Under the pieces are notes generated by a model. The model was not told where the DNA came from and did no database searches. It was given only the letters and a program-made list of their open reading frames with translations. From contig JAJYOK010000003.1 of NCBI GenBank assembly GCA_021796215.1, forward strand, positions 186,001-250,000: 64,000 nucleotides of DNA, read 5' to 3'. A program made the position numbers and the translations under genes. Source of the stretch: Bacteroidota bacterium. GTDB lineage: Bacteria; Bacteroidota; Ignavibacteria; UBA10030; UBA8401. How positions within the stretch are numbered: the stretch's first letter is position 1; each line of letters opens with the position of its first letter. Of this stretch, positions 2,596 to 25,350 are shown in pieces.

Positions 2596-2606
2596 TGTTG
2601 TTCCTC

Positions 2607-2621
2607 CACTATAATATAGTG
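2607..2621. promoter_or_regulatory. Perfect 15-base palindrome touching the receiver gene's SD
   Basis: CACTATAATATAGTG has 7-base arms around a single A. In the direction of the receiver gene it ends directly against the GGAGG Shine-Dalgarno. It could be a repressor site, an AT-rich promoter element, or a hairpin masking the ribosome binding site. Only the symmetry is seen; the role is inference. Confidence 0.4.
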
Positions 2622-2685
2622 ATTTTTTCGCGCCTGTCTGTAAGAGGAATCACAGCCTGCCGGATAACGGCGAGGTTTACAACCG

Positions 2686-3885: not shown

Positions 3886-3894
3886 TGAATTTTC

Positions 3895-5724: not shown

Positions 5725-5761
5725 CGTTCCTCCTTAGCGCCTGCCGCTTTATTTTTAGCTG

Positions 5762-7441: not shown

Positions 7442-7534
7442 TTTTTGTTCTCCTCTTTTAATTTTGTTAATAGATGAATTAATTTTGTGTTTGCTTTTTT
7501 TCAGGAAAACCATTGCGTGTGAAAATTCGCTTTG

Positions 7535-9265: not shown

Positions 9266-12097
9266 TCATTTCGCCATTATAAAAAATCTCTGGAGTTTCG
9301 GTTGTTCAGCGACATTTAGCAAGCGAAAAAATAATTGCGCTGTCTGCTGAGCAGCGTCTGGAACGCGAAGAAATTCAGTCCGTCCCACCGAATCGGTTCG
9401 CTGCGTGCATTCTTTCGCCGCTTCAAGCAATCCTTTGGCACCACGATGATGTAAGATTTTCCAGCCTGCTGAGCCCGCTTTTTGTTGTAATCCCTTTGAA
9501 CAATTACGCGGCACGTAACCGTGTTCGGCTTCTTCCAGCATTCCGATATCTTCGTCAGAATCACCGATAGCGGCAACGGCAGCGGCGCTATTCTGTAAAT
9601 ATTTTCTGACAAACTGAACTCCGCTTTTCTTGCTGCACTCTTTTTGAATGATATAGGTATCTGCGTCCCGCGCAATGAACGTCAGTTTATGAAGGTTGTG
9701 CTTTACCAAAAGATTTCTTGCTTCCTCAACGCTCAATCCGGATGTGCGGCTGTCGTTGTACCGGTATGCGCGAACAGAATAAGTATACTCTGGGTCAATA
9801 AAAACACCCGACAACGTCCGAATGACCTCGCGGCAGCGGCTTAATTGTTCTTTGCCATCATCGTCAATAAGCGGGATTTCTTGCTTTAGTACATTGTCAA
9901 AAAAAACGCTCCCGTATTCTCCAACGCCTCCCTGAAAAGTGTACGCCGTGCAATATAACTTCACATGCTGAATGCTTCTGCCGGTATTAAGAATAATTGA
10001 CCACCCGTCGGTTCGTAAACAGGCAATGGCTTGAATCCCGCTGACCGTTGTATGTGGAAACCCAAGCACTTCCGTATCATACACGCCGTCTAAATCCAGA
10101 AAGAAAAGTTTTTTCGTCCATTCCCCATGGTAAGTGCGTTGATGTAAGCCGGCGGCAAACCGGTTCATCGTACCAGCCAAAAAAGTGCGTGCATAAGTGG
10201 ATCGTTTATTGCCCATTTCACTACGCAACAGCCGAGCAAATTCAGCAGATTTTCTCATGACCCGGATTCCATACAAAAGCTTATAAAGCAATAGGCGGTC
10301 TCTGGCAGAATTGTCGCCGGTATAATTCTTATATGCCTGTAAAAATTCTTCTTCGGTGCTTCGCGGCATTTGAAATTCAAAAACGGCGCCTGCGACATCG
10401 TACACCGGATCAACAATATCAAGCTCAGGTGCACCAAAATTATGATGTTCAAAATCAACCTTGAACAACCCATCATGATTTTCTATCCATTCATGCGGAA
10501 GAATTTTTCCGTCCGTTACCGCAGGAGTGTACTGAAGCTTCCTCTGAAGCTCTGCCAAAAGTTTTTTGTCAATGATGCGGCCGAGGTAATTGCCGTACGC
10601 GCGGCGCACGATGCTGAGAATTTCAAGCCAGCCCCATCCATAATCGGGATTTCCTCTGCGTGGATCCTCCTTCAGGCGCAGGCGGTTTGTTCTGGCGGCA
10701 ATATACGATGCCAATGTTTGCACAGAAACAGCTGCACCAATTTCTTTTTTCTCCTTTGAAGCACGGTCAATCCAATCCATCAAAAGTAAGCCATTGCGAA
10801 GCCCGATACATGCCGGAACAAATTCGTGCATGCGCTTCGACATGATGAATGCGTGATACCCAAGCCATCCCCATCCTACACTCTTGGCAATTACGCGCCT
10901 CACTTCCGGCTTGGCGTGATCATTACTCGCACGAAATTCATAAAGCCGTTTCAAGCGCACCTGAAATCCTTCGGCATAATGAGCCTGCAACCGCGAGTTG
11001 ATCGCTTCCGTCTCTTTAGTCGTTTCGACGCTAACATTCGCCCATTGTTCACCTGAAAAATATTGCAGTGCGAGTTTTTCAATAGAAGGTGCTTGCATGA
11101 GTTTCCGTTTATAAAGCTCTTCATGCTCAAGAGCAATGACTTTCGATCCCGTTAACTTTCTTACAATATTCGTCCATCCGGTTTCGTACGAATGGTTGGG
11201 CGCTAAAAAGGTAACTCTGCGCGGCGAAATTCTGCGCGTTGTAAGAAGTTTCGAAGTCCGCAGAAATGTCTGACCCGTGTTTTGATAATCATCAATGACG
11301 AGCACCGGAGAAGACCTGAACATCATTCGCCGCAGCGCTTTTTTTTCCCCTCGCGCCAATCCTTCTCTCGGGCGTATTGTCATCCACGAAACATTAGGCC
11401 AGCCGAGAGAAGAAAGATAGGCTTTTGCCAGCGGAGCAAAATATGCGCCTGCCGTGCGAATCCCGACAATCATGACCGGAGAATAATGGTTGTTACTCGC
11501 GGTGATAAATTTCTGCACCAACGAAAAAACATCAAAGTGAGTTAAATCCTGACAACGGAATCCCTCATTTATTTTCATTCTCCGCTGCAACAGCGTGTCG
11601 GGCAATTCCAAACGAATAAGCGGGGCTATTTTCTTATTAATTTCCATGATGCGCTCGGAACGCGGCGCTGAATTTTCTACGAGCAGCGCGCAGACCTGTT
11701 CAATACAGCGATTCCAATTTCGCTTCCAGCGAACAACGCGTGTTTTGAAAAACGAATTTCTCAGCCGTGAACGCAAATTGAGAAGGCGTTCTAACGCGGA
11801 AATCACAAACTTCCAGCCGGGAAAACGATCTTGAAGCTTTTCCAATTTCCATCTGCGTACAGCAAGAAAATCATCAACGGCACATCCGATGGCACAGACA
11901 AAAAGGTACAGGTTGATCATACTTTCTTCTTTTTGCCACTCATATTGCAGTGAGGAATAGCGCTCACATTCTTCACTTAACCGCATGAACAAATCGTGCA
12001 CTGTCAAATACGGATTAAGACACCACTCATAATGAGAATAAAATCGCAATTCTGATTGCTGAGTACTTTGCATTGACATGGTTGGCGTACTGATCAT
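9266..12097 (-). CDS. Three-part fusion: phosphoribosyltransferase, kinase-like region, HAD phosphatase
   Basis: 943 residues without a signal peptide. Residues 1-190 are helical and unrecognised. Residues 205-345 look like a type I phosphoribosyltransferase: MIVGIRTAG, then the PRPP loop VLVIDDYQNTGQTF at 265-278. Residues 400-640 resemble a divergent aminoglycoside-phosphotransferase fold: VGWGWLGYHAF, LPHEWIENHDG, KVDFEHHNFG at 546-555, and DPVYDVAGA. The usual HxDxxxxN catalytic loop is not intact. Residues 660-890 are a HAD hydrolase of the Cof/trehalose-phosphatase style: DLDGV at 668-672, NTGR near 704, and GDSDED at 845-850. The fold calls for the first and third parts are firm; the middle one is tentative. 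It lies in the polysaccharide operon, 51 bases after a GNAT gene and 12 before the GH9 gene. Likely a bifunctional or trifunctional metabolic enzyme making a phosphoribosylated and then dephosphorylated small molecule; the substrate is unknown. Confidence 0.8.
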   Translation of the reverse strand: MISTPTMSMQSTQQSELRFYSHYEWCLNPYLTVHDLFMRLSEECERYSSLQYEWQKEESMINLYLFVCAIGCAVDDFLAVRRWKLEKLQDRFPGWKFVISALERLLNLRSRLRNSFFKTRVVRWKRNWNRCIEQVCALLVENSAPRSERIMEINKKIAPLIRLELPDTLLQRRMKINEGFRCQDLTHFDVFSLVQKFITASNNHYSPVMIVGIRTAGAYFAPLAKAYLSSLGWPNVSWMTIRPREGLARGEKKALRRMMFRSSPVLVIDDYQNTGQTFLRTSKLLTTRRISPRRVTFLAPNHSYETGWTNIVRKLTGSKVIALEHEELYKRKLMQAPSIEKLALQYFSGEQWANVSVETTKETEAINSRLQAHYAEGFQVRLKRLYEFRASNDHAKPEVRRVIAKSVGWGWLGYHAFIMSKRMHEFVPACIGLRNGLLLMDWIDRASKEKKEIGAAVSVQTLASYIAARTNRLRLKEDPRRGNPDYGWGWLEILSIVRRAYGNYLGRIIDKKLLAELQRKLQYTPAVTDGKILPHEWIENHDGLFKVDFEHHNFGAPELDIVDPVYDVAGAVFEFQMPRSTEEEFLQAYKNYTGDNSARDRLLLYKLLYGIRVMRKSAEFARLLRSEMGNKRSTYARTFLAGTMNRFAAGLHQRTYHGEWTKKLFFLDLDGVYDTEVLGFPHTTVSGIQAIACLRTDGWSIILNTGRSIQHVKLYCTAYTFQGGVGEYGSVFFDNVLKQEIPLIDDDGKEQLSRCREVIRTLSGVFIDPEYTYSVRAYRYNDSRTSGLSVEEARNLLVKHNLHKLTFIARDADTYIIQKECSKKSGVQFVRKYLQNSAAAVAAIGDSDEDIGMLEEAEHGYVPRNCSKGLQQKAGSAGWKILHHRGAKGLLEAAKECTQRTDSVGRTEFLRVPDAAQQTAQLFFRLLNVAEQPKLQRFFIMAK

Positions 12098-12148
12098 TTT
12101 TCTTTTTCAATTTCAAAAAACGGTCAAAAAAATATAGATCTTCGTGAT

Positions 12149-13396
12149 TCATTTATTGAGCGGGCGGTGTGTTGCCTTGCGCGCATGGATCCTTTTTCTT
12201 CGTGCTTTGAATTTCCTTAATAACCTGAGAGTGATATCCTGTCCCAATGCCCGCAACCCGTCAATTGTCCACGGATATATGCGGTACGTAAAATACTGGG
12301 AGACATTCTCCGTCCACACATGAATCCACGGCTCATCGTTACCCAAAAACTCAAAACTTTTTAGACGATGATTGAATGCATAACGTATTGCTTCATGCAT
12401 TAGCAAAGTTCCGGGCGAACAATGTGCAAATGCTTCATTGTAGCCGATTTTGAAGGTCCAAAAGCGTCCGGCGTACTCAGCCGCAAGCTGCGCCGCTATC
12501 GCCTTGCCATTAATCCGCATGTAACATGTACGAAGAATTCCTTTGCAAGCCGCTGTGCGTGCATATAATAAAAAGAAACGTTTTAGTTCCTGAATAGACC
12601 GCATGCTTGTACCGTTGCGCTCTTTCCAACTCGCGGCTTCAATTCGGAAAATTTCTTCCAGCTGACTGTTAACATCATTGATCTCAGGCGCAATAATTTG
12701 GTATTCTATAGTACCAAGCTTTTCTGCGTGCCGGCGGGCACGCCGCAAGCTTGAACGACGGCTCGCGGAAATTCCATTTTCAAACTCATCCCACGACGAT
12801 GCAATCGTAATCGAAGGCGCTCGTGAAAGTTCTTTGAATACGAACACTCGCGGAAATCGCAGCCGCTGTTCTACCGCCAGGGAGTCTAAAGCATCGAGCG
12901 CCAATCTGCCAAATATTGTCGGTTTGCGTAGAGCAGAGATCACTTCGAGCAAACGCCGCAGCGATTCTTCATCCCGATAAATAAATCCGCTCGGTTCCAG
13001 AAGCAGTGACGAACCCAGAAATTCCAAGCGTTCAACGCCATCAGTTTTCACAAGCGCCAGGGGAGCACCCGCGGCAATTTTATTATCAACCCGCAGCACA
13101 ATGACTGAAAGCTTTGCCGGCGGGCAAAACGCTTCGGCACAAGCTGCAAACCATTCGTGCGAAAGAAGCGGCGATTGAAACTTCTGCGCAAGCATGTTCC
13201 ATTCATCCGCCAACAGCACAAATTCCTTTGTTTCGCTCACGACCTCGACTATCCACTCTTTGTTGCTTTTGGCAAAGGGGTGAAATCCTTTGGGTGTTTC
13301 GGAAACACTACTTTGTGAATGTTGAACTCCCTTAGCCCGACGATGTGTTTCCTCAGCAGTTGAACGCATCAATTTTTCCATTTGCCCATGTATCAA
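12149..13396 (-). CDS. CelD/BcsL-type GNAT acyltransferase (FemAB-like)
   Basis: About 415 residues. The C-terminal half matches the CelD/BcsL acetyltransferase family: SASRRSSLRRARRHAEKLG, then FRIEAASWKERNGTSM, then GKAIAAQLAAEYAGRFWTFK, GYNEAFAHCSPGTLLMHEAI, and LKSFEFLGNDEPW. Such proteins are common in exopolysaccharide loci and are thought to acylate or aminoacylate sugars or lipid-linked precursors in the cytoplasm. The frame opens with a TTG at 13396, 11 bases after GAGGAGG. An ATG at 13381 is further from that site, so the exact start is uncertain. It lies between the PRODH-like gene (55-base gap) and the phosphoribosyltransferase fusion. A second member of the family is encoded at 16763-18202. 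Confidence 0.8.
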   Translation of the reverse strand: MIHGQMEKLMRSTAEETHRRAKGVQHSQSSVSETPKGFHPFAKSNKEWIVEVVSETKEFVLLADEWNMLAQKFQSPLLSHEWFAACAEAFCPPAKLSVIVLRVDNKIAAGAPLALVKTDGVERLEFLGSSLLLEPSGFIYRDEESLRRLLEVISALRKPTIFGRLALDALDSLAVEQRLRFPRVFVFKELSRAPSITIASSWDEFENGISASRRSSLRRARRHAEKLGTIEYQIIAPEINDVNSQLEEIFRIEAASWKERNGTSMRSIQELKRFFLLYARTAACKGILRTCYMRINGKAIAAQLAAEYAGRFWTFKIGYNEAFAHCSPGTLLMHEAIRYAFNHRLKSFEFLGNDEPWIHVWTENVSQYFTYRIYPWTIDGLRALGQDITLRLLRKFKARRKRIHARKATHRPLNK

Positions 13397-13451: not shown

Positions 13452-14471
13452 TTAAAGAGAAGTAATAAAAGGTGTTCCTTCTCCATGCTGTTGGCGCCCT
13501 CGGAGAGAATTTTCAACCGGCTTATTGTTTTCTGCTTCTTTTTGTTTTGATACTTCAAAAGAATGCGTGCCAATTGATGATTGAAAACCTGTTTGAGTCT
13601 GCGGTTTGTCGTTTTCCTCTAATGATGAACCGAGTTCTCTAATTTTTTCGCTGGTGCTCAAAAAACTGTCACGTATAATCCACCAAAATATTTTCGGGCG
13701 CTCTATAGCAAATGAAAGATTGTATGGCATTGAAGGATAACCGTAGGGAATGTACAGCCTTCGTTCAATATTTTCTCTGCCAATCGCGTGTGCATCCAGC
13801 CACGGTAAACCAGTCATTTGTTCGATCTCGTATGGCGTGGAGCTTTCACTGAGAATTTTCACCGCTTCGCACGCCAGCTTTTCGTCATGTGTTGCTATGC
13901 TGACATGGTTTTTACTTCCTGCAAACATATCAACAAGATTGAGATAGCGACGACGCACATTTGTATGCAAATTCAATGGATCGTTCCACTGTCCCTTTAC
14001 AATCCGGACAGGAATTTGCATGTCGAGAATTTTTTCTGCATCAATTACACTCCGACGCCATCGCGCAGGAAGTGTGTAGCCGATGTTGCGATATCGCTGC
14101 AAGCCATATTCAAGAAGAGCGAGCGAACGCGGCGCAGATTCCGGGTGCTGCGCGTCAATAAGAAGAGGAATGTCGAGCGCCTTCGCGTGCCACACAACGT
14201 CGCTGAACAGTGTAGACGAATAGTGCAGCGCAGTCAATTTGATAGAGAGCCGGCAATCTGCGTTGAGTTCAGCAATAGCATTCAACGCACGGGCGTACTG
14301 GAAGGCAACAAGAGCTGGCGTGTCATAAGGACGTTCCCATAAACAGAGCGTGATCTTCCACCCATGAGCCGACGCGCGCCGGCAAACATCAATCGCACTT
14401 GAAAGAGCCGGCCCTGTTGTATGAGAGCGCGCAAGAAATCTCAGAACTTTTGATTTCAGATCTTCTATCAT
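13452..14471 (-). CDS. Divergent proline-dehydrogenase-like TIM barrel
   Basis: 339 residues from the ATG at 14471, which has GGAGGAGGT five bases before it; a longer frame to 14507 (an ATGA overlap with the ATP-grasp gene) has no such site. The protein tracks the canonical proline dehydrogenase encoded at 56706-57620 motif by motif: LSIKLTAL, LLIDAQHPES, VRIVKGQW, VSIATHDEKL, YEIEQMTGLP, and a final RLYIPYGYPSMPYNL. In the canonical enzyme the last block ends in an Arg pair (YSIRRLKENP) that binds the proline carboxylate. Here the aligned residues read NLSFAIERP, with no Arg pair. So the flavin barrel seems kept and the proline site lost; a different substrate, or no catalysis, is inferred. 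The C-terminal 70 residues are polar and unrecognised. Confidence 0.72.
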   Translation of the reverse strand: MIEDLKSKVLRFLARSHTTGPALSSAIDVCRRASAHGWKITLCLWERPYDTPALVAFQYARALNAIAELNADCRLSIKLTALHYSSTLFSDVVWHAKALDIPLLIDAQHPESAPRSLALLEYGLQRYRNIGYTLPARWRRSVIDAEKILDMQIPVRIVKGQWNDPLNLHTNVRRRYLNLVDMFAGSKNHVSIATHDEKLACEAVKILSESSTPYEIEQMTGLPWLDAHAIGRENIERRLYIPYGYPSMPYNLSFAIERPKIFWWIIRDSFLSTSEKIRELGSSLEENDKPQTQTGFQSSIGTHSFEVSKQKEAENNKPVENSLRGRQQHGEGTPFITSL

Positions 14472-14503
14472 AGCACACCTCCTCCCTGTCATATTAGGCA
14501 AAC

Positions 14504-15844
14504 TCATAAATCAACTGCATTTTGAACCGACGGGATGGCGCTTGTCACCGCTTGTCGTTTGTCGGTCAGCGCTGGTTTCACCGGTGCAGCCGGCTGTTCC
14601 GTTTCATGGCGGCGGCCGAAGAGCCGTCCTACATTTCTCTTGACAAACGCAAACAAGGAAACCAAAAACGGGCGCATATCTTTCCGGTCGAATACTCTGT
14701 AGTATTTTTTCCGTTTTAACGATTGGAGATACGTTTTCAGTGTCCACTCACCAAGAGCACGGTAACCGCCAAAAAAGGCCCTCGCATCTTGTTTGAAATA
14801 CAGCAATCGCACATCATTTTTGTAATAAACCTGCGGAGGAATTTCTTTCCCCCGTTGATGCTCGTACGCAATGTAGGCGAGATTAGCGCCTGCTAATGCG
14901 CCGACAACTTCCCATAAATTATATCGCGGATTCATTTCGAGAATTTTGAAATCCTGGCTGCGCGGGTCCCACTTAAAATCAATCTTTACAATTCCTTTGA
15001 ATTGAATTTGCTGTAAACATTCGATGCTCAGCTGGGCTAATGTCGGATGGTAAATTGTTCGCACGTATGCGCTTCCGCCGGTATTCGGTGGATACGTTCG
15101 AATTTTTCGCCCGACAAAATATCCAAGGCATCGCGACTGTTCATCAAAATATCCATGGAAACTTAAAATGTTTTCATCACTTCCTTCTATATACGATTGA
15201 ATAAGATAGCCCGACTGGCGCTTTGGCAGCGCGCGGCAAAAGTCAACCAATTCTTCTTTCGATGCAATACGCCGCAGCGCTTTTTTGTAGGGACCGAACT
15301 TTGTTCTTTGCTCTTCGGTGTCCCACACCCAATCCTGTGTAAATGCCGGTTTAACGATACATGGGTATTCGATAAATGAAATTGTGCTGTTTAGATCGTC
15401 CGTGCCTTTAGCTATCGTCGTTTCAGGAATCGGGAGATCATAGGCTTTCGCAAAGCTGCTGAAAAGTACTTTGTTAAAAAGGCATTCGAGAAGTTGATCC
15501 GACGGGAGGAGAAATCTGTACAGCGAACTGAGCCTATCCCGGTAGTGCCAAATAAATGCAAGCTCAGCATCCGATGTATAATACAGCACCGGACATTCTT
15601 TTTGCTGACGCGCAAATGTTTCAAGAAGCTGTGCTATTTTCTCTTCGTTGCTCTGCTGAAATGACGGAAGGAAAATTCTTCCTCCGCAATATTTTGAATA
15701 GAACGCAATATCATCTCGTTGGGATGAGGCCACGGTTGTACGAATTCCCGCAATGCCGAGTGCGCGGACAATATCGTACGCGTCTGGTGTGCCTCCCGCT
15801 GTGATGACAATTGCAGTGGATGAGTTTTGATCAATGTTCTGCAT
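14504..15844 (-). CDS. ATP-grasp carboxylate-amine ligase
   Basis: 446 residues. The N-terminal Rossmann-like preATP domain (IVITAGGTPDAYDIVRALG) is followed by the ATP-grasp core: FNKVLFSSFAKAYDLPIPET, YPCIVKPAF, SGYLIQSYIEGSDEN, GIVKIDFKWD, and FKILEMNPRYNLW, the last giving the metal-binding Glu and Asn. Family members join a carboxylate to an amine or thiol using ATP, via an acyl phosphate. The C-terminal 90 residues are basic (KRKKYYRVFDRKD) and may bind membrane or partner. No signal peptide. AGCGGAG lies before the ATG. It sits 43 bases after the ComA-like gene and 32 before the PRODH-like start. The substrates are not predictable from sequence. Confidence 0.88.
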   Translation of the reverse strand: MQNIDQNSSTAIVITAGGTPDAYDIVRALGIAGIRTTVASSQRDDIAFYSKYCGGRIFLPSFQQSNEEKIAQLLETFARQQKECPVLYYTSDAELAFIWHYRDRLSSLYRFLLPSDQLLECLFNKVLFSSFAKAYDLPIPETTIAKGTDDLNSTISFIEYPCIVKPAFTQDWVWDTEEQRTKFGPYKKALRRIASKEELVDFCRALPKRQSGYLIQSYIEGSDENILSFHGYFDEQSRCLGYFVGRKIRTYPPNTGGSAYVRTIYHPTLAQLSIECLQQIQFKGIVKIDFKWDPRSQDFKILEMNPRYNLWEVVGALAGANLAYIAYEHQRGKEIPPQVYYKNDVRLLYFKQDARAFFGGYRALGEWTLKTYLQSLKRKKYYRVFDRKDMRPFLVSLFAFVKRNVGRLFGRRHETEQPAAPVKPALTDKRQAVTSAIPSVQNAVDL

Positions 15845-15887
15845 AAGGTTTCTCCGCTTTTCTTGTTCTGCGTATTGTTATTTTTCT

Positions 15888-16751
15888 CTATACTTTAGCT
15901 TCGAAAAGCTCACGCTGCGCAAGCTTTCGTGCCGCTTGTGGACGAAGATGAAGTTTTTGAAATGCATCGCAATGAAGACCGCGGCGATAACTCTCCGCCT
16001 GTAAAATGTCTTCAAGGTGAACATTACACAGGTGAACATCGCGGCCAAAATAATCGAGCAATGCAAACTGGCTGTGCAAGTCCGGCGCTTCAAACATGAC
16101 TGTATGCAAGCCGAATATTTTTGCAAAGCGGTCGGCATACGGGTAATTGAGCATGCCTCTTCGATTAAATAATCCACTATGCCATAAATTTTCCCGGGCT
16201 TTCACTACGAGCTGTATTGCACCGGCATCAAGCCATTCCTGCCCTTGATCAATCATAGAATCGGCGGCTTTCTTTCCCGATATGCCGGACGTATGCTTTC
16301 CCAATTCAATCTGGACTTCAAGTTCCCGTTCCGTTGCGGCGGACACAACGGTTTTCGGCTTCTGGCGGGCTTCCGTTACGCGTGACATGACCTCTACTCT
16401 TGCCACGCCGATATCGGCACACAGATCGAGATAATCAGAAAGTTTTCTTAACGAAATAGCTATCTCAAGCGGCGACCCTCCGGTAACAGTTGGAACACTA
16501 TAGCGCCGCGCTGCCGCAACTTTTTGCCGTGTCGCATTTTCATCTGCGACCAACCACCCAGCCAGTCCAATTTTTATAATTGAAATTAAATGTGAACTTT
16601 GATCCATGTGGCTTTCAAATGTCATCGGGTCACATCCAACGTCAACCGGACTGGTCAATGGCGGGATTTTGGGGATTCCAAGTTCACGTAAATACTCGCT
16701 TGTATGGAAGCGCCGTTTCATCACAACTTCGTCATCAGTTTGCTTCATCAT
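15888..16751 (-). CDS. ComA-like (phosphosulfolactate synthase family) TIM barrel
   Basis: 287 residues from the ATG at 16751, placed 7 bases after GAGGAG; a GTG at 16766 overlaps the upstream stop but has no ribosome site. The pattern follows the ComA family of phosphosulfolactate synthases: HLISIIKIGLAGWLV, YSVPTVTGGSPLEIA, GVARVEVMSRV, WLDAGAIQLVVKAREN, VMFEAPDLHSQFALLDYFG, DVHLCNVHLED, and SYRRGLHCDAF. ComA adds sulfite to phosphoenolpyruvate, the first step to coenzyme M and sulfolactate. Its presence within a polysaccharide operon, with no other coenzyme M gene seen, argues for a different product, perhaps a sulfonated or carboxylated decoration. Family membership is well supported; reaction is inference. 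Confidence 0.75.
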   Translation of the reverse strand: MMKQTDDEVVMKRRFHTSEYLRELGIPKIPPLTSPVDVGCDPMTFESHMDQSSHLISIIKIGLAGWLVADENATRQKVAAARRYSVPTVTGGSPLEIAISLRKLSDYLDLCADIGVARVEVMSRVTEARQKPKTVVSAATERELEVQIELGKHTSGISGKKAADSMIDQGQEWLDAGAIQLVVKARENLWHSGLFNRRGMLNYPYADRFAKIFGLHTVMFEAPDLHSQFALLDYFGRDVHLCNVHLEDILQAESYRRGLHCDAFQKLHLRPQAARKLAQRELFEAKV

Positions 16752-16762
16752 TATCCAACTCC

Positions 16763-18202
16763 TCACGATTGCTTGTTATCATTTTCTAAAGACAATGGAA
16801 AATCTGCGGGCGCGAACTTTTCCTGAAAAAGTTTTTCCGTCAGGCGGTGTACAAATAATTGTATGTACATAAAAAGGAATTTTCCCGCGCCGTGAACGTA
16901 CAATTGCACGGACAACAATTTCCATTCGTCAGAAATGCGCCTTCCCGTCTTCCCAACAATGCGGACAAGCCGGTACAGCATGACCCTCAATGTTTTCCTC
17001 GTTTGCGGATTAAACACGTGAATATCCACGTTGCGAGCCATACCGGTTGCCAACTCAAATTTGTACTGCTCTGTGCCGCGCAAAAAATCAACAACGCGAA
17101 CTTTGCTCTGTATCGCATTTTCAATCATCGTCAGTAACAGAGCTCTGCTTGGACTTTTCTTCGCACCGGGGGCTGTGTCATCGAACCCGGAAAGATAATC
17201 GTAGCATCGCCCCTTAAAAATAAAACCGACGCGCAACGCAATGCGCACGCCCGCGAACCGGACTGCTTTAAACCACAGGACGCGTTGTTTGTAAAACGCG
17301 CTGAGAACATCGCTTTGAAATTGAGTGAATCTGTGGTCTGAAAAAAGGCCGGCATACCCCAGCCTGTTCCATCGCAATTGATGTAACTGAACCAGATCGC
17401 GATAGGCGCTCGCGAAAGATGACCACGTCTCAATGGTTTCAATCGAGAACGGAGGATGTGCAACGAATTCTTTCTTCACCTGATTCACGCGGTGCCGCAA
17501 ATTGGGATGAACGTCGAGATATTTCTCCATTGACTGCGGCGCGGCAAGGTATGGGCAGATTTCACCTTCCGCAACATTACACTCCCAATGCGATTTTTTC
17601 AATTCAGGCACAATGTATTTGTTCAGGGCACTCTGCTGAGGTACGTCCTGAAAATGAACTTCGTCGAAAAGATCGGCATGGGCAGCAAGATACGCGGAAA
17701 ATTCTTTTGCAACTTCAACGCCATTCTCCGGAAGTACAATGATATCGAGATAATCGCTGGGCCCATATTCTGCCGGCAAGCCGCGATTCTCCTTTGATGC
17801 GATTCCGCAGCCAAGCATCCGCAAGCGGCTGTACATCACGTTGTCTCTTTGTGAATATCCATGGTGGCACACATAATACTTTTGGAGAAACAACGGGATG
17901 ATTCCTACCAGAGCGCCGGAGCGCCGGAATGTAATTATATGCAGTTGAAACTTTGTTCCGTAATGTTTCCACCAGAACCATTGCCACGCAAACAGTTGAT
18001 AGACATGAACAGGGCACTGTTCGACAAGCTTTTCCCACTCATCCCGAAGCATCAGGAATTCCGTTTCACGGGTAACCACCTTCACTTCGAGCGGTGCATT
18101 TTCTGTCTTCAAATGCGGCTGGGACCGTTCCGATTCCTTCACTCGCTCAGCAGGCGCAGATACAGAAGACAGCAATTGAGCTTCAGCTCTTGAATTTTTC
18201 AT
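16763..18202 (-). CDS. Second CelD/FemAB-like GNAT protein of the locus
   Basis: 479 residues from the ATG at 18202, with GGTGAG upstream; it overlaps the deacetylase stop by 20 bases, so translation is probably coupled. An N-terminal GNAT-like part (WEKLVEQCPVHVYQLFAWQ, FQLHIITFRRSGALVGIIPL) is followed by a CelD-type C-terminal part (HPNLRHRVNQVKKEF, QLRWNRLGYAGLFSD, VLWFKAVRFAGVRIALRVGF, YDYLSGFDDT, VDFLRGTEQYKFELA). The family transfers acyl or aminoacyl groups, often in polysaccharide or cell-wall synthesis. It is only distantly similar to the GNAT protein at 12149-13396, so the two probably act on different acceptors or donors. A hydrophobic stretch near residues 440-455 (GKFLFMYIQLFVHRL) may bring it to the membrane. 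Confidence 0.8.
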   Translation of the reverse strand: MKNSRAEAQLLSSVSAPAERVKESERSQPHLKTENAPLEVKVVTRETEFLMLRDEWEKLVEQCPVHVYQLFAWQWFWWKHYGTKFQLHIITFRRSGALVGIIPLFLQKYYVCHHGYSQRDNVMYSRLRMLGCGIASKENRGLPAEYGPSDYLDIIVLPENGVEVAKEFSAYLAAHADLFDEVHFQDVPQQSALNKYIVPELKKSHWECNVAEGEICPYLAAPQSMEKYLDVHPNLRHRVNQVKKEFVAHPPFSIETIETWSSFASAYRDLVQLHQLRWNRLGYAGLFSDHRFTQFQSDVLSAFYKQRVLWFKAVRFAGVRIALRVGFIFKGRCYDYLSGFDDTAPGAKKSPSRALLLTMIENAIQSKVRVVDFLRGTEQYKFELATGMARNVDIHVFNPQTRKTLRVMLYRLVRIVGKTGRRISDEWKLLSVQLYVHGAGKFLFMYIQLFVHRLTEKLFQEKFAPADFPLSLENDNKQS

Positions 18203-19157
18203 AATCACTCACCGAATGATGTAATGGTTCGATCGAATGAAACGGCGGCACAAGCAGTTCGTTTTCATAGCCGCGTTGTTTTTTTCTGAGAATTTTTCCG
18301 GCAGTCCATCGCAGCCAACTGTAATACTGGTAAAGATTTGAGACCCGAACGGCAAGCTGTGAATTTGTCGTTGAATTCAAGATCGGAATACGGCGCAGCT
18401 CGTATACGTCTCTTCCAAAAAAAGCCGGACCCGTCCACACACTGCACGCATGGACAAATCCGGCACTCGCTACCATTTGTTTCACTGCCTCGTTCACAAG
18501 TCCGTATGGATATGAAAAACTGAGCACCGGCGCGTTGAGAAGAATTTCAAGAAGAACGCGTGCGCGTGAAATTTCTTCCCATGCACGATCCTCTTTCACT
18601 TCGGTGAGTCTTATGTGGCTCATCGAATGCGCTCCGATTTCAATTCCCGCTTCATGCATTTCCAAAATATGGTTGTCATCCAACAACGGCACCTGCGGAA
18701 GTTTAAGGTGCGCATCCCACACATTGGTTCTGATCGAGCGGTCTCCCAGCACAAATACAACCGCCTTCATACCGAATTCCTGTAACAACGGAAATGCAAT
18801 TTGATATGTATCCAGATATCCGTCATCGAATGTTAAAATGATCGGCTTGTGCGGCAACTCCAAACGTTTCTCAGAGGCAATCCGGTAATCTTCAAACGTG
18901 ATGGGCGTAAATCCCCACCGGTCCAGCCATTCAAGATGTTTGCGGAATTCGTCTTCAGGGAGACAGAATTTGCAGACATTTTCTTTTCCGGCGTTTTTCA
19001 CGATACGGTGATAAACCAGAATTTTGATTGTACGAGAACCGTTTTGTCTCAACGACTCGCTTTCCGCTCTTTCCGGCGGTTGTGTCTGATATCTATGTTC
19101 AGGAATCATATTCAGCCCGCTGTTCTTTTCAAATAAGAATGCAAACTCCTGCTGCAT
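18183..19157 (-). CDS. Polysaccharide deacetylase (NodB fold)
   Basis: 324 residues. The NodB homology domain shows ILTFDDGYLDT (the catalytic base and metal Asp), GAHSMSHIRL (HxxxH metal ligands) and LSFSYPYG. Members remove N- or O-acetyl groups from sugars. No signal peptide or membrane helix is seen, so this one likely works in the cytoplasm or on lipid-linked intermediates, as in other exopolysaccharide loci. KILVYHRIV opens the domain at about residue 46. Its start codon directly follows the stop of the GT4-type glycosyltransferase, and its end overlaps the next GNAT gene, both signs of a single transcript. Confidence 0.9.
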   Translation of the reverse strand: MQQEFAFLFEKNSGLNMIPEHRYQTQPPERAESESLRQNGSRTIKILVYHRIVKNAGKENVCKFCLPEDEFRKHLEWLDRWGFTPITFEDYRIASEKRLELPHKPIILTFDDGYLDTYQIAFPLLQEFGMKAVVFVLGDRSIRTNVWDAHLKLPQVPLLDDNHILEMHEAGIEIGAHSMSHIRLTEVKEDRAWEEISRARVLLEILLNAPVLSFSYPYGLVNEAVKQMVASAGFVHACSVWTGPAFFGRDVYELRRIPILNSTTNSQLAVRVSNLYQYYSWLRWTAGKILRKKQRGYENELLVPPFHSIEPLHHSVSDYEKFKS

Positions 19158-20411
19158 TTAGTACACCGTGATTTGTCGTTTGACTGTATTTCCATTGGTA
19201 TTGCGCATAACGTGAGGTTTATTTCTGTGCACAATTTCCTCATAGCATTCTTCCATGCGGCGGCTGATAATTGACCAATCGTAGCGCGTACGCGCTATTT
19301 CGTATCCACATGCAGCAAGCCGCTCTCTTTTTTGCTTGTCATTGAGAAGTTCAACAATCGCATCAGCAAACGATGAAGGCTTGTCCCGCACCAAAAGCGA
19401 TTCACCGTCTTGGACATCAATTCCTTCGCAACCAATGCTTGTCGTGACAATCGGTTTATTTACCGCCATCGCTTCGACAACTTTGAGGCGCGTTCCCCCT
19501 CCCATGCGGAGAGGCACGACATAAACACTTGCTTTTTGCATATACGGACGCACATCTTCAACGTAACCGGTGATAATAATATTGTGTGACGCCCGCTTTA
19601 AAAGATTTTTCGGCGGTTGGCTTCCGACAATGTAAAGTTTTACCCCGGGAATTTTTTTAAGCACCAGAGGGAAAATTTCATTGAGGAAATACAACATTCC
19701 GTCGTAATTCGGAACGTAACCCATCATTCCCGTGAACACAAGCGAAAACGGTTCAATAGACGCATCCGCCGGAGTAAAATAAGAAGTATCAACGCCGTTC
19801 GGAATAACGTATTTCGGAATTTCCGGCACATCGTTATCGAGAATGGATTTGTCTCTCGACGATGTTGCAAAAATTGCATCGCTTTTTTTGCACGCTTTGA
19901 TCTCTTCGGAAAAGAATGTTTTATATTCCCGGCGATAATACATACGGCGCAAGAACGATGGCACGCTTGCCCCAATCCGCCGGAAGTTGTCATACTCGAC
20001 ATTGTGTGCATCGAGAATTGTGACAGCATCCGTCTCGTACTGAAATGCACCCATCACGGCAAATTCCAATTGCACGATATCGTATTCATTTTTCTCCAGC
20101 AGTCTGTTTATCAGCAATTGCATTTCGTGAGTGTACGTGATTAATCGGGAAAAGCTTTGTTTTGTCAGAAGAGCGTACGACTGGCCTACCCGCCGGTTAT
20201 GTTGAATCCATGGATGCGGCGGTATGAGGTGGATATTGTTTACTTGTTTTCCGAAGTGTTCGTTGAGAAGCCGATAATCTTTTTGATTGCCGTACGCTGC
20301 TATGGTCACATTGTGGTGCTCTGCCATATGTTTCAGCAAATGGTAAATGCGTAACGCGCCGCCAAATGTCGGCGGTACCGGTGTGTACGGCATTACATGC
20401 AGAATTTTCAT
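19158..20411 (-). CDS. Glycosyltransferase, GT4-like (GT-B fold)
   Basis: 417 residues. The N-terminal acceptor domain begins MKILHVMPYTPVPPTFGGAL, with GGALRIYHLLKHMAEHHNV typical of GT4. The C-terminal donor domain shows VFTGMMGYVPNYDGMLYFLN, KLYIVGSQPP, ITGYVEDVRPYMQKASVYVV, RMGGGTRLKVVEAMAVNKPI and VTTSIGCEGIDVQDGESLLV. The sequence resembles sugar transferases seen with EpsH/exosortase-type exopolysaccharide loci, though no exosortase is in the window. It acts in the cytoplasm on the lipid-linked repeat unit. The stop abuts the deacetylase start, and 48 bases separate it from the WecG-type gene. Confidence 0.9.
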   Translation of the reverse strand: MKILHVMPYTPVPPTFGGALRIYHLLKHMAEHHNVTIAAYGNQKDYRLLNEHFGKQVNNIHLIPPHPWIQHNRRVGQSYALLTKQSFSRLITYTHEMQLLINRLLEKNEYDIVQLEFAVMGAFQYETDAVTILDAHNVEYDNFRRIGASVPSFLRRMYYRREYKTFFSEEIKACKKSDAIFATSSRDKSILDNDVPEIPKYVIPNGVDTSYFTPADASIEPFSLVFTGMMGYVPNYDGMLYFLNEIFPLVLKKIPGVKLYIVGSQPPKNLLKRASHNIIITGYVEDVRPYMQKASVYVVPLRMGGGTRLKVVEAMAVNKPIVTTSIGCEGIDVQDGESLLVRDKPSSFADAIVELLNDKQKRERLAACGYEIARTRYDWSIISRRMEECYEEIVHRNKPHVMRNTNGNTVKRQITVY

Positions 20412-20459
20412 GCGTTCATTTCCCTTGAGAATAGAAATACATTTTTACGATGTGAAAAT

Positions 20460-21377
20460 TCATGAGAACACTCTTTCCCTAATTATTTTTTGGAGCCTTC
20501 GCGGGAAAAGCTTTTTTGCAAAAAGGAGGGAAAAGAACATCGGAATTTCGACGATCACTCTCTCCCATTTCGCATTTGGCTCCTGTATAAAGCGATAAAA
20601 CCATTCGAACCCGATTTTACGAATCCACAACGGCGCTCTTTTCCGCGTTAACGAGAGGAAATCAAACAGACCTCCGACCGCTATACAGATTTTTGCTTTC
20701 AACTCATGCGCATGACGGCTCGTCCATATTTCCTGCAGCGGAGTTCCAAGCGCGACAAGAACAATATCAGGGTGCACAGCATTAATTTCGTCAACGATCA
20801 TCGCTTCTTCACCGGAACGGAAATGCCCTTCGTGAAATCCGACGATGCGGAGACGCGGATATTTGAGGAACAAAAGCATGCAGCACCGCTCTACAACCTG
20901 AAGTTTTGCACCGAATAAATACACCGACCAACCGCGTTCTTCAGCAATTTTTAAAATCGCAGGGGTGAAATCTGTCCCGTTTAGATTTTCTATGATAGGA
21001 TGCCCGGTAAAACGTCCGCCGATTTTCAATCCGCTGCCGTCTGCCAAAACCAAATCTCCCAAATTGATGCAATATTTGAGAACGCGATTCCGTTGTGCGA
21101 CACAAATACTGTGAACATTGCTGAAAAATATTTTTCTCGCTCGTCCTGAATTTTCTTCCACATAGCGGGAGACAATTTTTCGCGCGGTGTCACCGTCTAT
21201 ATTATCAATTCTTGTTCCCAGCAAATAAAAAGTTTGAAGGTTAAATTGCGGTTCCGTTTCCGCTGTTCCGCTCTTCACCTCATAGCGCAGCAGCGTGCGT
21301 GTCTTCACGCTGTCGTTGAATTCCCTTTGTTGCACTCCGACTCGTTCAGCAACATTTTTTCTTTTTTCTTCAACCAT
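20460..21377 (-). CDS. WecG/TagA/CpsF family glycosyltransferase
   Basis: 305 residues from the ATG at 21377 (MVEEKRKN), which follows TTGGGGAAAG and overlaps the polymerase stop by 8 bases; an upstream ATG at 21434 would overlap by 65 bases and is less likely. Motifs of the family: FYLLGTRIDNIDGDTARKIV, FFSNVHSICVAQRN, LVLADGSGLKIGGRF, NGTDFTPAIL, WSVYLFGAKLQVVERC, VGFHEGHF, and DIVLVALGTPLQEIWTSRH. Members transfer ManNAcA, ManNAc or glucose to a lipid-linked first sugar, commonly as the second step after a WecA-type transferase. That fits the WecA-type fusion encoded divergently at 27461. The C-terminal end (IGFEWFYRFIQEPNAKW) is the usual family tail. Confidence 0.92.
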   Translation of the reverse strand: MVEEKRKNVAERVGVQQREFNDSVKTRTLLRYEVKSGTAETEPQFNLQTFYLLGTRIDNIDGDTARKIVSRYVEENSGRARKIFFSNVHSICVAQRNRVLKYCINLGDLVLADGSGLKIGGRFTGHPIIENLNGTDFTPAILKIAEERGWSVYLFGAKLQVVERCCMLLFLKYPRLRIVGFHEGHFRSGEEAMIVDEINAVHPDIVLVALGTPLQEIWTSRHAHELKAKICIAVGGLFDFLSLTRKRAPLWIRKIGFEWFYRFIQEPNAKWERVIVEIPMFFSLLFAKKLFPRRLQKIIRERVFS

Positions 21378-22929
21378 TGCTTTCCCCAAGGGGGCTTTCA
21401 ACTTGTTCATCGGCGATATGCGAACTCCGCGCATCGATGTATTCGAGAGCCGGAACTAATCCCATCAGTGTACCGAGATAAATCATATTGCGATAATAAG
21501 TTAGCTGGAGGTCGTAGTACGATACAACGATCTGATTAACCGCAGCTACGACGGCCAACGCGCATACGGCTTTCAAATAAGGGTTTTTCAGTTTCATGAA
21601 CACATTCGCCCCATGACATGCAAAACAATCGAGAAAAAACCAAAAAAGGAAATATCCGACAGCGCCGGTTTTGACAATCAACCAGAGCACTTCATCGTGC
21701 GGAATATAGTCGCGCAGCGGAAACGCAATCGGTACTAACTTTAGCGGCTGAAGGTACTTGTTGCCGAAACCGATACCTATGACCGGAGCAGTTTTCACGG
21801 TTTGTGCGAGATCGTACTTTTCTTGTTCGCGATAAAGGTTCGAGTAATAGCGGTCGCCTTCTTCTTCTTTATCTTTGGTTAATGCGGTCTTAATCAACTT
21901 CACCGGCGATGCAAGTTTGCTTTCACTGTTCCAAAATATTCCTGCATAGAGCGCAATAAGAATAAGGAACGGAAAAGCACCTTTGATGAATGCCCACGTC
22001 TGCCGCGGAGGAAGCAGCACGAAGAAAGCAGCCAGTGTCGGCACAATAGCGGCGTACGCCGCGCGCCGCTGCCCTGCAAAGAAACCCATCATTAAAGGAA
22101 ACAGTAAAAGAAGAAGCGCAAAGCGCTGGCTCGTCTTTGCATTGAACAGCACCAATGCGAACAACAGTACAACAAGCGTGAACATGAAGACAGGATCCTC
22201 ATGATTGGTCAATGTTGCAATTCCTCTAAAGGTGAACCCGAGATGGATGAATCGCTCGATAGCCTGAAAAGCTTTGAACGAAATCGCTAAGATACACACC
22301 CACAACAGCGCACGGACATCTTTTTCCGTCTGGACAATCTGCGGGACAAGCGCATACATTGCACCGAAATAAAAAAGCGCCCGCACTTCCCACAATGCCG
22401 GAAGAAAGCTTCCACCGGTTTTCAATCCGTATACGACAAAAGCGATAATGCCGACGTAAAAAGCAACCATTGTTCCCCACGCAGGAATTCGGTTCAAGTG
22501 CCTGTTCTTCCTGTAACAGAGTACGCCAAACCACACCGCAAGTATGAAAAGAAGTTGAACTTCAAGAGGATTAAGAACTGCGGCGCTGATGGAAGGCAGA
22601 TAAGGAATTTCTTTTATGTTGTGAAAATACGCCACCTTCAGCGTTATCGGATCGAATTCGGGAATAATGAATTGATCGAACAACAGCACAAATCCGATAA
22701 AAAGATAAAACCCCCATTCAACCCGGAACAATGTCAGCGTCGCAACGATGGTGAGTCCTACAAACGCAACAGCGGCAAAAATATTTCCGTACGTCAAAAT
22801 AAGAATTGCCGAAACGCCGAGTGTTCCTGCCAGCATGACGAGAATCGTTGCTTTGCTGTCGCGGGGAATGCCCAGCCACTCCACGCAACGAACAAAAGGC
22901 GAAATCTCCTTGACAAACGTTTCTGACAT
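21370..22929 (-). CDS. O-antigen ligase/Wzy-type polymerase membrane protein
   Basis: 519 residues with about 11-12 hydrophobic segments, from ATILVMLAGTLGVSAILILT near the start to AVCALAVVAAVNQIVVSYYD near the end. A long periplasmic loop (KLIKTALTKDKEEEGDRYYS, then TAPVIGIGFGNKYLQPL and YIPHDEVLWLIVKTGAVGY) carries the Wzy_C-type pattern with a conserved His (HDE). Such proteins polymerise lipid-linked repeats or ligate glycan to an acceptor in the periplasm. Its context (Wzz, BY-kinase, WecG-type transferase) suggests the polymerase role. It lies 12 bases downstream of the 55-residue membrane protein gene. Confidence 0.85.
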   Translation of the reverse strand: MSETFVKEISPFVRCVEWLGIPRDSKATILVMLAGTLGVSAILILTYGNIFAAVAFVGLTIVATLTLFRVEWGFYLFIGFVLLFDQFIIPEFDPITLKVAYFHNIKEIPYLPSISAAVLNPLEVQLLFILAVWFGVLCYRKNRHLNRIPAWGTMVAFYVGIIAFVVYGLKTGGSFLPALWEVRALFYFGAMYALVPQIVQTEKDVRALLWVCILAISFKAFQAIERFIHLGFTFRGIATLTNHEDPVFMFTLVVLLFALVLFNAKTSQRFALLLLLFPLMMGFFAGQRRAAYAAIVPTLAAFFVLLPPRQTWAFIKGAFPFLILIALYAGIFWNSESKLASPVKLIKTALTKDKEEEGDRYYSNLYREQEKYDLAQTVKTAPVIGIGFGNKYLQPLKLVPIAFPLRDYIPHDEVLWLIVKTGAVGYFLFWFFLDCFACHGANVFMKLKNPYLKAVCALAVVAAVNQIVVSYYDLQLTYYRNMIYLGTLMGLVPALEYIDARSSHIADEQVESPLGESNG

Positions 22930-23115: not shown

Positions 23116-23961
23116 CTACTCCTGTTCATCTTTCACGCGGTTCAAAATGAATCCGATTACTTGTCGTTCGTTTAACCGCCTGAACACTTTTTCCACATCG
23201 TGACGTTTCGTCATTGTGGAATCAACCACCATGACAACACCGTCGAGGCGATTTGCAAAAAGCACCGGAAAATCTTCTGTATTCATTGCCGGCATATCAA
23301 CGACGATGAATTCATAATCCTGCTGAAGCGCCGAAATGACATCGCTGAACGCAGTCATTTGCTCAAGCCTGAGGCGCTGTGGATTGGAGAAATTCAATGA
23401 GCGGTGAAAGCGATTCCCATTCGCTCCCCACTGCTGTCCATGCCCACTTAAAGATCCCGCTGAAAGAAGATGGAGATGGTCAACCGCCGTTTGCCACACA
23501 TGAATGTTGCTGCTGCTGAGCGCATCAAGCAAACCAGGCCCTTGCGGAGCGCCAAATACTTCATGCAAGGTTGGGTGTTGTATATTCAAATCCACAAGAA
23601 TTGTTTTTTTCTTGTATCCAAGCGTCAGCGAAACTGCAAGATTCGAAGCAACGAGAGATTTTCCTTCTCCCGCATTCGCGCTCGTGATTCCGAGAGCAAG
23701 CTGAACTTCATTTCCCTCTTTTGACAACAGTGAGTAGTTGAAAGAATTATAATAGGGAAATGCAACAGTTTGCGGATCCACTGTCCTTCTGCGTATGGGG
23801 TTCAGCACGATAGATTTGGGAATTTGTGTAATTGCCTTTGCTTGTGGATTTGCCGGAGGAATTGGCAAGCGGGAAATTCCTTCTTCAATGTGAATGTCCG
23901 TTTTATTTTCTTCATTCATTGAAATTACTTTAGCCTTCACGTTTAGTCCGTTTATGATCAC
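23116..23961 (-). CDS. CpsD/CapB-like BY-kinase ATPase
   Basis: About 281 residues. Walker A is ITSANAGEGKSLVASNLAV, the A' region TILVDLNIQHPTLHEVFG, and Walker B EFIVVDMPAMNTED. These regulators pair with Wzz-type proteins and control polymer length and export through tyrosine phosphorylation. Unlike classic members, there is no tyrosine cluster at the C-terminus, which ends FILNRVKDEQE, so autophosphorylation there is not possible. The frame begins with a GTG whose GTGA overlaps the Wzz stop; an ATG 14 codons in (MNEENKTDI, 23919) is an alternative. Gene order Wzz then kinase matches split Wzc systems. Confidence 0.88.
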   Translation of the reverse strand: MIINGLNVKAKVISMNEENKTDIHIEEGISRLPIPPANPQAKAITQIPKSIVLNPIRRRTVDPQTVAFPYYNSFNYSLLSKEGNEVQLALGITSANAGEGKSLVASNLAVSLTLGYKKKTILVDLNIQHPTLHEVFGAPQGPGLLDALSSSNIHVWQTAVDHLHLLSAGSLSGHGQQWGANGNRFHRSLNFSNPQRLRLEQMTAFSDVISALQQDYEFIVVDMPAMNTEDFPVLFANRLDGVVMVVDSTMTKRHDVEKVFRRLNERQVIGFILNRVKDEQE

Positions 23962-25307
23962 TGAGAAATACTGCTGCTTTCAGGGATGTAAGCGATGATT
24001 GGTTTTTGGTACACTTCAAAATCTTCCTTGTGACGCATTGTCGTATCAAGAAGCTCAGATGTTGCCGCAGTGAGCAGCCCGATAATCAGTCCCACACCTA
24101 GCCCGCCTAAAATAATCAGCAAGCGGTTTGGCTTTGACGGTTCCGTCGGCACTAATGGGGGATCTATAACGAGAAACTGATTTTTTTGCTCTCTGCCAAG
24201 ATCGCGTGTCGTACGCGCCTGTTCGAGTTTGATCTTCATCTCATTATAAAGTTTTCTATAAATGTCGAAATTTGATTCCGTGTTTTCATTTTCCTGATTA
24301 GTAACCGTTGATTGCTGCATGTCGCTGATGACCCTCGCTCTTTCCTGTTCAGCTTCCATTCGTTTGCTCTGCTGCTGGTCCACCGCTTTCTCAAGTGTTG
24401 AACGCATAACAACGAAAAGATCGCTGATTTGATGAGTGAGCTTCTGCACTTCGGGATACCTTTGTGTATATCTGTTTGAATAGTCGTCGTATTTGTTCAA
24501 GAGCGAATTCAACTGAGCCGCATAAGGAACATTCATTTGTCCTAATTCGTATGCCGCATTTCTTCCCTTATCGGTTTCCATCGGATCGGGATAGGTACGA
24601 ACAATTGCGAGCGCCCGTTCATAGGTTTTCGCTTGCGCGTTGATGTCGCGGAGATTCTGATCTGACTCCTCCAATTGCGAATTGATCATGTGCTCTGTTC
24701 CGGGCGATGTCTGAATATTCTGGCGCAGTTCCGTCAGCATTTCCTGCTGGCTCGTTTCGAAACGTTGACGTAATTCTTCCAATTTGTTCTCAAAAAATTC
24801 GACAGCCATTTCGTTCCGCTGGTTTTCTACCTGAATGATGGTTCGAATAAAAATATCGGCAAGAAGTTTTACCGCCTTTTGCGCCCGCACAGGATCAGTA
24901 TCAAGATAGGCGATCCTAAAGGACGACGAGCCGGGACGTTCTGTGGAAATGTTTTTCCGGACTTGCTTGAATAATTTTTGCTGCGCTTCTGTCGTCATCA
25001 TTCTTGGTCCTGCGAGCTGCAGGCTGTCCACAATAGACTGAATGGTATTCGTGCTGTACACAATTTCATTGAAGGTTTTTAAAATATCCTCAGATGCCAT
25101 TGTGACTGCCATTTCGTAGCTGACAAGCGGGTTGAGCACTTGGTCTCGTTGAACAAGAATTGTTGTTGACGATTCGTATTTGCGCGGCAACAGAAAAGCC
25201 CCCGCCGTGCAAATTGCGACTACGAGGACAACAGGAATGAAAATAAGTTTGCGCCTGCGTCGTAAAATTCTCAGAACTTGCTGTGCGTTAAACTGTGCAT
25301 ATTCCAA
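23958..25307 (-). CDS. Wzz/GumC-type chain length determinant
   Basis: 449 residues. I place the start at the TTG at 25307: AAGGAG lies 6 bases before it, whereas the TTG at 25313 directly touches that site. A cytoplasmic N-terminus with RRRRKLIFIP leads into the first membrane helix (VVLVVAICTAGAFLLP). A Wzz-type domain follows (YESSTTILVQRDQVLNPLV), then a long periplasmic coiled coil (about residues 160-370, rich in Gln/Glu), then GNVR-like PPLVPTEPSKPNRLLIILG and a second helix (GLGVGLIIGLLTAATSELLD). The protein sets polymer length together with the adjacent BY-kinase. It is the first gene of the minus-strand operon. Confidence 0.93.
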   Translation of the reverse strand: MEYAQFNAQQVLRILRRRRKLIFIPVVLVVAICTAGAFLLPRKYESSTTILVQRDQVLNPLVSYEMAVTMASEDILKTFNEIVYSTNTIQSIVDSLQLAGPRMMTTEAQQKLFKQVRKNISTERPGSSSFRIAYLDTDPVRAQKAVKLLADIFIRTIIQVENQRNEMAVEFFENKLEELRQRFETSQQEMLTELRQNIQTSPGTEHMINSQLEESDQNLRDINAQAKTYERALAIVRTYPDPMETDKGRNAAYELGQMNVPYAAQLNSLLNKYDDYSNRYTQRYPEVQKLTHQISDLFVVMRSTLEKAVDQQQSKRMEAEQERARVISDMQQSTVTNQENENTESNFDIYRKLYNEMKIKLEQARTTRDLGREQKNQFLVIDPPLVPTEPSKPNRLLIILGGLGVGLIIGLLTAATSELLDTTMRHKEDFEVYQKPIIAYIPESSSISQ

Positions 25308-25350
25308 CGGCAACTCCTTGTTTTTCTAATTCATCTTAAATCAACAACGA

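Follow-up and report, generated by a model that had tools for sequence, protein, structure and literature searches.

The proteins closest to the one considered here, which is encoded in a stretch of 64,000 nucleotides from a Bacteroidota bacterium (the window), are the phosphosulfolactate synthases ComA of M. jannaschii (PDB 1QWG) and B. subtilis (1U83). With these it shares the family (PF02679), the whole-barrel (beta/alpha)8 fold and 26 of 31 deeply conserved positions; it differs from them in having K137, E168, K209, F78 and G107 changed, in its polysaccharide locus and in the lack of adjoining ComB and ComC. ComB is the 2-phosphosulfolactate phosphatase (PF04029; best solved relatives 2YYV and 1VR0). 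The likeness to coenzyme M biosynthesis (comABC, comDE) is that its first two genes stand side by side in relatives of the window gene and that one relative (genome G534) has an Ldh_2 gene resembling that of L-sulfolactate dehydrogenase; the differences are the polysaccharide context, the ATP-grasp and GNAT partners and a ComC-like gene by the cassette in one locus only. Sulfolactate is known from coenzyme M synthesis, from bacterial spores and from sulfonate breakdown. Plant HSA32, a ComA-family protein with a role in heat tolerance, may be a precedent for a ComA barrel that works outside biosynthesis. In literature searches covering mostly titles and the beginnings of abstracts, with subscription journals largely absent, no report was found that connects the making of phosphosulfolactate or sulfolactate to the assembly of polysaccharides, or that describes sulfolactate as a constituent of surface polysaccharides; none was found on phosphosulfolactate with ATP-grasp or on sulfolactate with lactate racemase, and nothing relevant on sulfolactate and exopolysaccharide, as judged by title and abstract start. 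The families described below are known ones in a new arrangement.

The ComA-like gene of the window sits in an exopolysaccharide locus with the following features (evidence in brackets).

3895..5724, minus strand: GlmS-like amino-sugar gene (SIS + glutamine amidotransferase)
9266..12097, minus strand: phosphoribosyltransferase-like + HAD phosphatase protein (profiles; among fetched loci only in the window genus)
12149..13396, minus strand: second GNAT/Acetyltransf_6 (PF13480, 9.5e-27)
13452..14507, minus strand: proline-dehydrogenase-like protein (PF01619, 21.9 bits, below the cut-off of 27; NF045947, 4.2e-15)
14504..15844, minus strand: ATP-grasp ligase of a second clade, distinct from the clade behind ComB (profiles; tree of 34 ATP-grasp rows)
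15845..15887, no strand: junction of 43 bp, in relatives the site of ComB and the cassette ATP-grasp, and of a methyltransferase in L045/L047 (gene order in L044, L043, L045 and L047)
15888..16751, minus strand: ComA-derived (beta/alpha)8 protein with lost active-site residues (PF02679, AF2 model, residue tables, dN/dS)
16759..16764, minus strand: Shine-Dalgarno-like GAGGAG (read from the sequence)
16763..18208, minus strand: GNAT/Acetyltransf_6 (FemAB-type) transferase, directly upstream of the ComA-like gene (PF13480, 1e-17; gene order)
18183..19157, minus strand: polysaccharide deacetylase, PgaB/IcaB-like (PF01522, 2.8e-25; TIGR03938, 1.6e-27, below cut-off)
19158..20411, minus strand: GT4 glycosyltransferase (profile matches)
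20460..21434, minus strand: WecG/TagA glycosyltransferase (PF03808, 1.3e-54)
21370..22929, minus strand: Wzy-type EPS polymerase (NF041870, 9e-29, below cut-off)
23116..25313, minus strand: Wzz/Wzc-type chain-length and ATPase pair
25753..26481, plus strand: Wza-type polysaccharide export protein (PF02563, 1.2e-18)

The polymer of this locus is probably an amino-sugar polymer, since the locus holds a deacetylase and a GlmS-like gene; a relative of the latter also lies near the ComA-like genes of the third lineage described below. Two congeners share this gene order, as does G013, from another genus of the family, as far as its contig reaches. A flippase gene (family Polysacc_synt, 104.8 bits in L035) stands between the WecG and GT4 genes in G006, G007 and G013 and is absent at 20411-20460 of the window. 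The proline-dehydrogenase-like gene (13452-14507, minus strand) is also kept in the two congeners and in L045/L047, and its substrate may have changed. Farther along, at 29425-34086 on the plus strand, the window encodes a protein of 1553 aa with Fn3/Ig-type repeats and a C-terminal FlgD_ig/sorting-domain-like end.

The longest open frame of the ComA-like gene (15888-16766, minus strand) codes for 292 aa from a GTG. We prefer the ATG at 16751 to the GTG at 16766 as the start, because GAGGAG lies 7 bases upstream of this ATG (16764-16759) and the ORF of a congener copy also begins with MKQ. Because the GAGGAG shares bases with the stop codon of the GNAT gene before it, the two genes are probably translationally coupled.

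The window protein is a ComA-fold homologue far beyond chance. PF02679 matches it with E 6.5e-37 (127.7 bits, cut-off 25.2), and the solved ComAs 1QWG and 1U83 with E 1.1e-23 and 1.3e-14. Its AF2 model (pLDDT 85) has eight alternating strands and helices and is aligned by Foldseek to 1QWG with TMt 0.89 and E 5.5e-17, the best match other than ComA structures being at E 1.8e-06. Together these matches rule out a chance hit or a misreading of the homology, and they place the protein in the ComA family by profile score and by fold. An earlier note, made from the window alone, had described a ComA-like enzyme in a polysaccharide locus, with acyl and ligase enzymes as neighbours and no ComB or ComC nearby. 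The profile score, the fold match and the locus genes bear out the first statement; the neighbours are indeed an Acetyltransf_6 (GNAT) on one side and an ATP-grasp ligase on the other, and profile search and gene order found neither ComB nor ComC next to ComA in the window.

The gene is the sole ComA in a genome of 3.37 Mb, whose single ComB-family gene lies on another contig (G000 C41, 75874-76548, 243.7 bits). With a PF02679 match so well above the cut-off, one could take the protein for an ordinary phosphosulfolactate synthase served by that stand-alone ComB, a reading which we hold to be improbable. The archaeal ComA equivalog profile TIGR03849 gives it 124.9 bits against a cut-off of 280 (an intact relative, at 161.6 bits, is also below), no match to the sulfolactate-dehydrogenase-like family NF040650 was found in the genome, and K137, E168 and K209 are lost. 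Stand-alone ComB-family genes are present in 20 of the 22 genomes of the family, 16 of these without ComA, which itself is found in 4 of the 22; stand-alone ComB is therefore not tied to ComA, and we rejected it as a dedicated partner.

The window gene belongs to a distinct ComA subfamily, parted from canonical ComA by a 100/100 branch (in a tree with every third canonical row) and thinly spread over several phyla. It was seen in 9 of 98 genomes of the order, and either it or a divergent third lineage in 12 of 391 genomes drawn from the class; subfamily-level scores were reached in 1 of 297, 3 of 198 and 3 of 132 genomes in the phyla of the acidobacterial, Nitrospira and Zixibacteria members, respectively. 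A scan of named genomes with two short peptide patterns (80 candidate stretches, not exhaustive) gave at least 22 loci, from Bacteroidota/Ignavibacteriales, Acidobacteria, Zixibacteria, Nitrospira, and one bin each labelled 'Proteobacteria' and 'Bathyarchaeota', the latter perhaps through a binning error. Spread by plasmids was considered and dropped, no plasmid match being found at E 1e-30. The canonical set used for comparison consisted of 28 loci and two PDB sequences; the source was 30 of the loci from 95 genomes with phylum matches, two of these 30 being of the window genus. Duplicates (L035/L037/L038 of L044/L043/L062; G593/G520/G480 of L045/L046/L047) were counted once each, and L064, whose ComA is cut by the contig end, was dropped from the ComB counts.

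Twenty-one members have an intact active site (L045-L061, L063, G534, G641 and G1040). As the earlier note had proposed, we mapped the gene neighbourhoods of the homologues: ComB directly follows ComA in all 21 intact members, overlapping it or lying within about 20 bases, and in none of the 9 copies that have lost residues. PF04029 confirms the assignment in three cassette members (118.7-137.6 bits, cut-off 26.4); in whole-genome profile search it was found in 24 of 25 genome entries, three of which are second copies of the same genome, the miss being the genome of L064 and the match in G441 being a stand-alone ComB. The ComB of L047 is split over two frames, and the match in G641 comes in two pieces. 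Compared with stand-alone ComBs, the cassette ComBs are a divergent set with about half the score. Of the 20 ComB-linked loci that could be assessed, 17 have an ATP-grasp from a single clade (20 rows, 100/100), as a rule immediately behind ComB; it was not seen in L052, L054 and L059, and the locus of G1040 is too short for assessment.

Other genes accompany this ComA-ComB-ATP-grasp cassette. A SAM methyltransferase gene (two members profile-tested) lies directly upstream of ComA in nine loci (L047, L048, L050, L051, L053, L059, L064, G534 and G641), and a LarA-type gene is present in seven, five of them profile-tested, with a mandelate-racemase-type enzyme in its place in L059. Flippase, polymerase, sugar-transferase or glycosyltransferase genes occur in L056, L051 and L059. 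GNAT and ATP-grasp are fused in G534 (by profile) and G641 (by length and similarity); these fusions, adjoining or near ComA-ComB, are at L145 16915-19626 (903 aa, profile-tested) and L146 3352-6009 (885 aa), and suggest that the two activities act on one substrate. In the ComB-linked locus L047, a protein encoded at 2280-5924 joins two GNAT domains, hexapeptide repeats and an acyl-carrier domain, and an AMP-binding ligase gene lies beside it at 5872-7485. Downstream of ComA-ComB, L145 has an RraA-like aldolase gene and an Ldh_2 gene (11605-12345 and 14772-15851). The best NCBIfam match of the G534 Ldh_2 is L-sulfolactate dehydrogenase, at 251.9 bits against a cut-off of 500; we did not count a ComC-like Ldh_2 as part of the cassette, since it is near ComA in this one locus only and below cut-off.

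In the intact cassette ComA would most likely make 2-phospho-3-sulfolactate, or a close 2-phospho-hydroxyacid, from PEP; ComB would most likely remove the phosphate from this product, and ATP-grasp and GNAT/FemAB-type transferases would most likely join the hydroxy acid through its carboxylate to a polymer. A free 2-hydroxy acid product is suggested because 2-hydroxy-acid racemases adjoin ComA-ComB, and activation and transfer of the carboxylate because ATP-grasp is fused to GNAT. The cassette would thus couple sulfolactate, or an analogue, to a surface polymer. Sulfite is the default nucleophile; outside the third lineage, however, every one of the 25 members differs from canonical ComA by the loss of S105 and by R244H, and 24 of them also by the loss of N224, so a nucleophile other than sulfite is possible even in the intact cassette. 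The earlier note had offered sulfonated polymer decoration as one option; this fits the relatives, with ComA, ComB and ATP-grasp in polysaccharide loci, and probably does not apply to the window copy.

The window gene itself descends from a cassette ComA, as follows from its place in the 100/100 subfamily clade and its synteny with L045/L047, yet it is without both ComB as next gene and the cassette-clade ATP-grasp. In L045 and L047 (same order) ComA is followed by ComB, cassette ATP-grasp, methyltransferase and second ATP-grasp, then by GNAT and proline-dehydrogenase-like genes. In the congeners L044 and L043, ComB and the methyltransferase are missing, which leaves ComA, cassette ATP-grasp and second ATP-grasp, and the window species has ComA and the second ATP-grasp only. 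Because the window ATP-grasp falls in the second clade, it is the cassette ATP-grasp that has been lost here. In G013 no ComB adjoins ComA; by eye, ComA is followed there by a methyltransferase gene (frameshifted in the assembly), the start of an ATP-grasp-like frame and the contig end. Since ComB is next in every intact relative examined, its absence, which is particular to this lineage, represents loss; the idea that, with no ComB at hand, this ComA had served something unrelated from the start was discarded on the same ground.

For the residue comparison we used 31 deep-invariant positions, each of which holds one residue throughout the 21 intact members and in no fewer than 29 of the 30 canonical ComAs. 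Leaving out one intact member at a time gave no change in 20 of the 21 and one change in one. At these positions the window protein has five changes, F78L, G107R, K137H, E168K and K209L (1QWG numbering); the same count is five in L044, seven in L043, 14 in L062 (G013) and 20-23 in the third lineage. K137, E168 and K209 do not vary in canonical ComA or in any of the 21 intact relatives, and this conservation, with their position at strand ends, suggests catalytic roles. From its sequence, then, the window protein lacks conserved active-site residues of a canonical phosphosulfolactate synthase, which supports the earlier suggestion of an altered site and a non-standard substrate. The looser EVMSR block pointed out in the earlier note is likewise real (canonical EISDG/EISNG) and is one of several active-site changes. 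Sequencing or assembly error as the source of the substitutions was ruled out, the same changes being present in separate genomes with 85-90% protein identity.

The third lineage consists of two copies each in G441 and G485 and one in G469. Its two strongly degraded ComA-like copies per genome (G441 C148, G485 C119/C44; L140, L142 and L143) lie in EPS-type loci with chitinase-like genes (seen by eye) and GNATs, and the three copies tested still match PF02679 at 54-60 bits. Six of the nine residue-lost copies (window, L043, L044, L062 and the b copies of G441 and G485) have a GNAT of the window's GNAT family as the gene immediately upstream, the GNATs upstream of the two b copies being only about 20% alike and that of G441 lying in two frames; the other three have no GNAT directly upstream. 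The correlation between loss of residues and loss of ComB may reflect one or two events, because all residue losses are within one class and a single clade of losses was not rejected (p-AU 0.49, in a tree that left out G469, L139, 1U83 and most canonical rows for their long branches).

The stepwise loss of cassette genes (ComB and methyltransferase, then ATP-grasp in the window species) and the far more degraded G013 copy, with 14 of 31 positions changed, would suit a relic without function that is on its way out. The frames are open in all copies, though, and the ComA-like gene of the window genus has dN/dS of 0.036-0.054, the lowest of nine locus genes in each genome pair (0.060-0.209 for the eight others, the cassette ATP-grasp being comparable in one pair only). 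The figures for intact ComAs of comparable divergence are 0.023-0.029. With dS of 0.8-3, near saturation, and NG86 dS infinite for 3 of 10 pairs, these values are rough. Third-lineage pairs, at 0.103, are close to one control gene (0.098) and above the other (0.050). We regard a decaying relic as very improbable, the least probable of the readings considered.

Selection is distributed unusually along the window-genus protein. With pocket loops defined, by our choice, as the two residues that end each strand plus the five that follow (56 sites), variable sites number 17 of 56 in the loops and 27 of 186 elsewhere (p 0.01), so that the loops vary about twice as much as the rest. Intact copies show the reverse: in four sets 2, 0, 3 and 3 of 56 loop sites vary, against 18, 12, 55 and 52 of 186 elsewhere. 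The third lineage shows no difference between pocket and rest (12/56 and 53/184; 14/54 and 41/182). Within the window genus the strand-4 and strand-5 loops differ (EVMSRV/EVMSPI and ELGKH/ELWKQ). Low dN/dS, taken with pocket loops more variable than the rest, indicates that the window protein is held by strong purifying selection, as far as codon comparisons tell, and not chiefly at its pocket.

The main rival to the reading that we favour is a rewired enzyme, in which the barrel would still bind PEP or another phosphorylated three-carbon acid but employ another nucleophile or another reaction, the HAD protein at 9266-12097 taking over from ComB as phosphatase. The window protein retains 26 of the 31 deep-invariant positions, K43, E79, E103, E133, R170, E171, E205 and N227 among them, which is compatible with a changed but live active site and which we counted against our own reading; the gene is strongly constrained, all three congeners carry E168K, K209L and S105M, and the HAD-containing gene has been seen only in the genus that lost ComB. 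Against this, congeners differ in their strand-4 and strand-5 loops, and pocket loops vary more than the rest; we consider a rewired enzyme unlikely, though well ahead of an ordinary synthase. The repurposed PEP-dependent aldol-type reaction offered in the earlier note is possible; we rate it below a non-catalytic role, given that pocket-loop residues differ between three species of the genus whereas the remainder of the protein is strongly conserved.

On balance we lean, with somewhat more confidence than doubt, towards a cassette-derived barrel that would no longer carry out phosphosulfolactate synthesis and would assist the probably coupled GNAT without catalysis of its own, in a structural or ligand-sensing part. 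The ComA barrel of this lineage has lost conserved, probably catalytic residues while staying under strong purifying selection, in a locus from which ComB and, in the window species, also the cassette ATP-grasp are gone; it may be retained for the barrel body as such, perhaps to serve the GNAT transferase as subunit or sensor, a role suggested by gene order, the overlap of GAGGAG and stop codon, dN/dS and the variation of the pocket loops. More tentatively, one may join the two parts of the picture: the cassette, with methyltransferase, LarA-type racemase and GNAT helpers, would make sulfolactate or a new 3-substituted lactate that becomes amide-linked to surface polysaccharides, and the Ignavibacteria-type barrel would be a non-catalytic subunit that organises or senses for a polymer-modifying transferase.

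One practical consequence is that annotations as 'phosphosulfolactate synthase' in such loci can mislead. The window copy looks like a natural example of an enzyme barrel whose active site is lost while the remainder is held by strong selection, and is useful for understanding how pseudoenzymes arise. The cassette of the intact relatives, placed in surface-sugar loci, points to an unrecognised way of decorating bacterial polysaccharides; a conserved cassette of this kind would offer genetic access to the sulfonated glycopolymers of uncultured soil and groundwater bacteria and nitrifiers.
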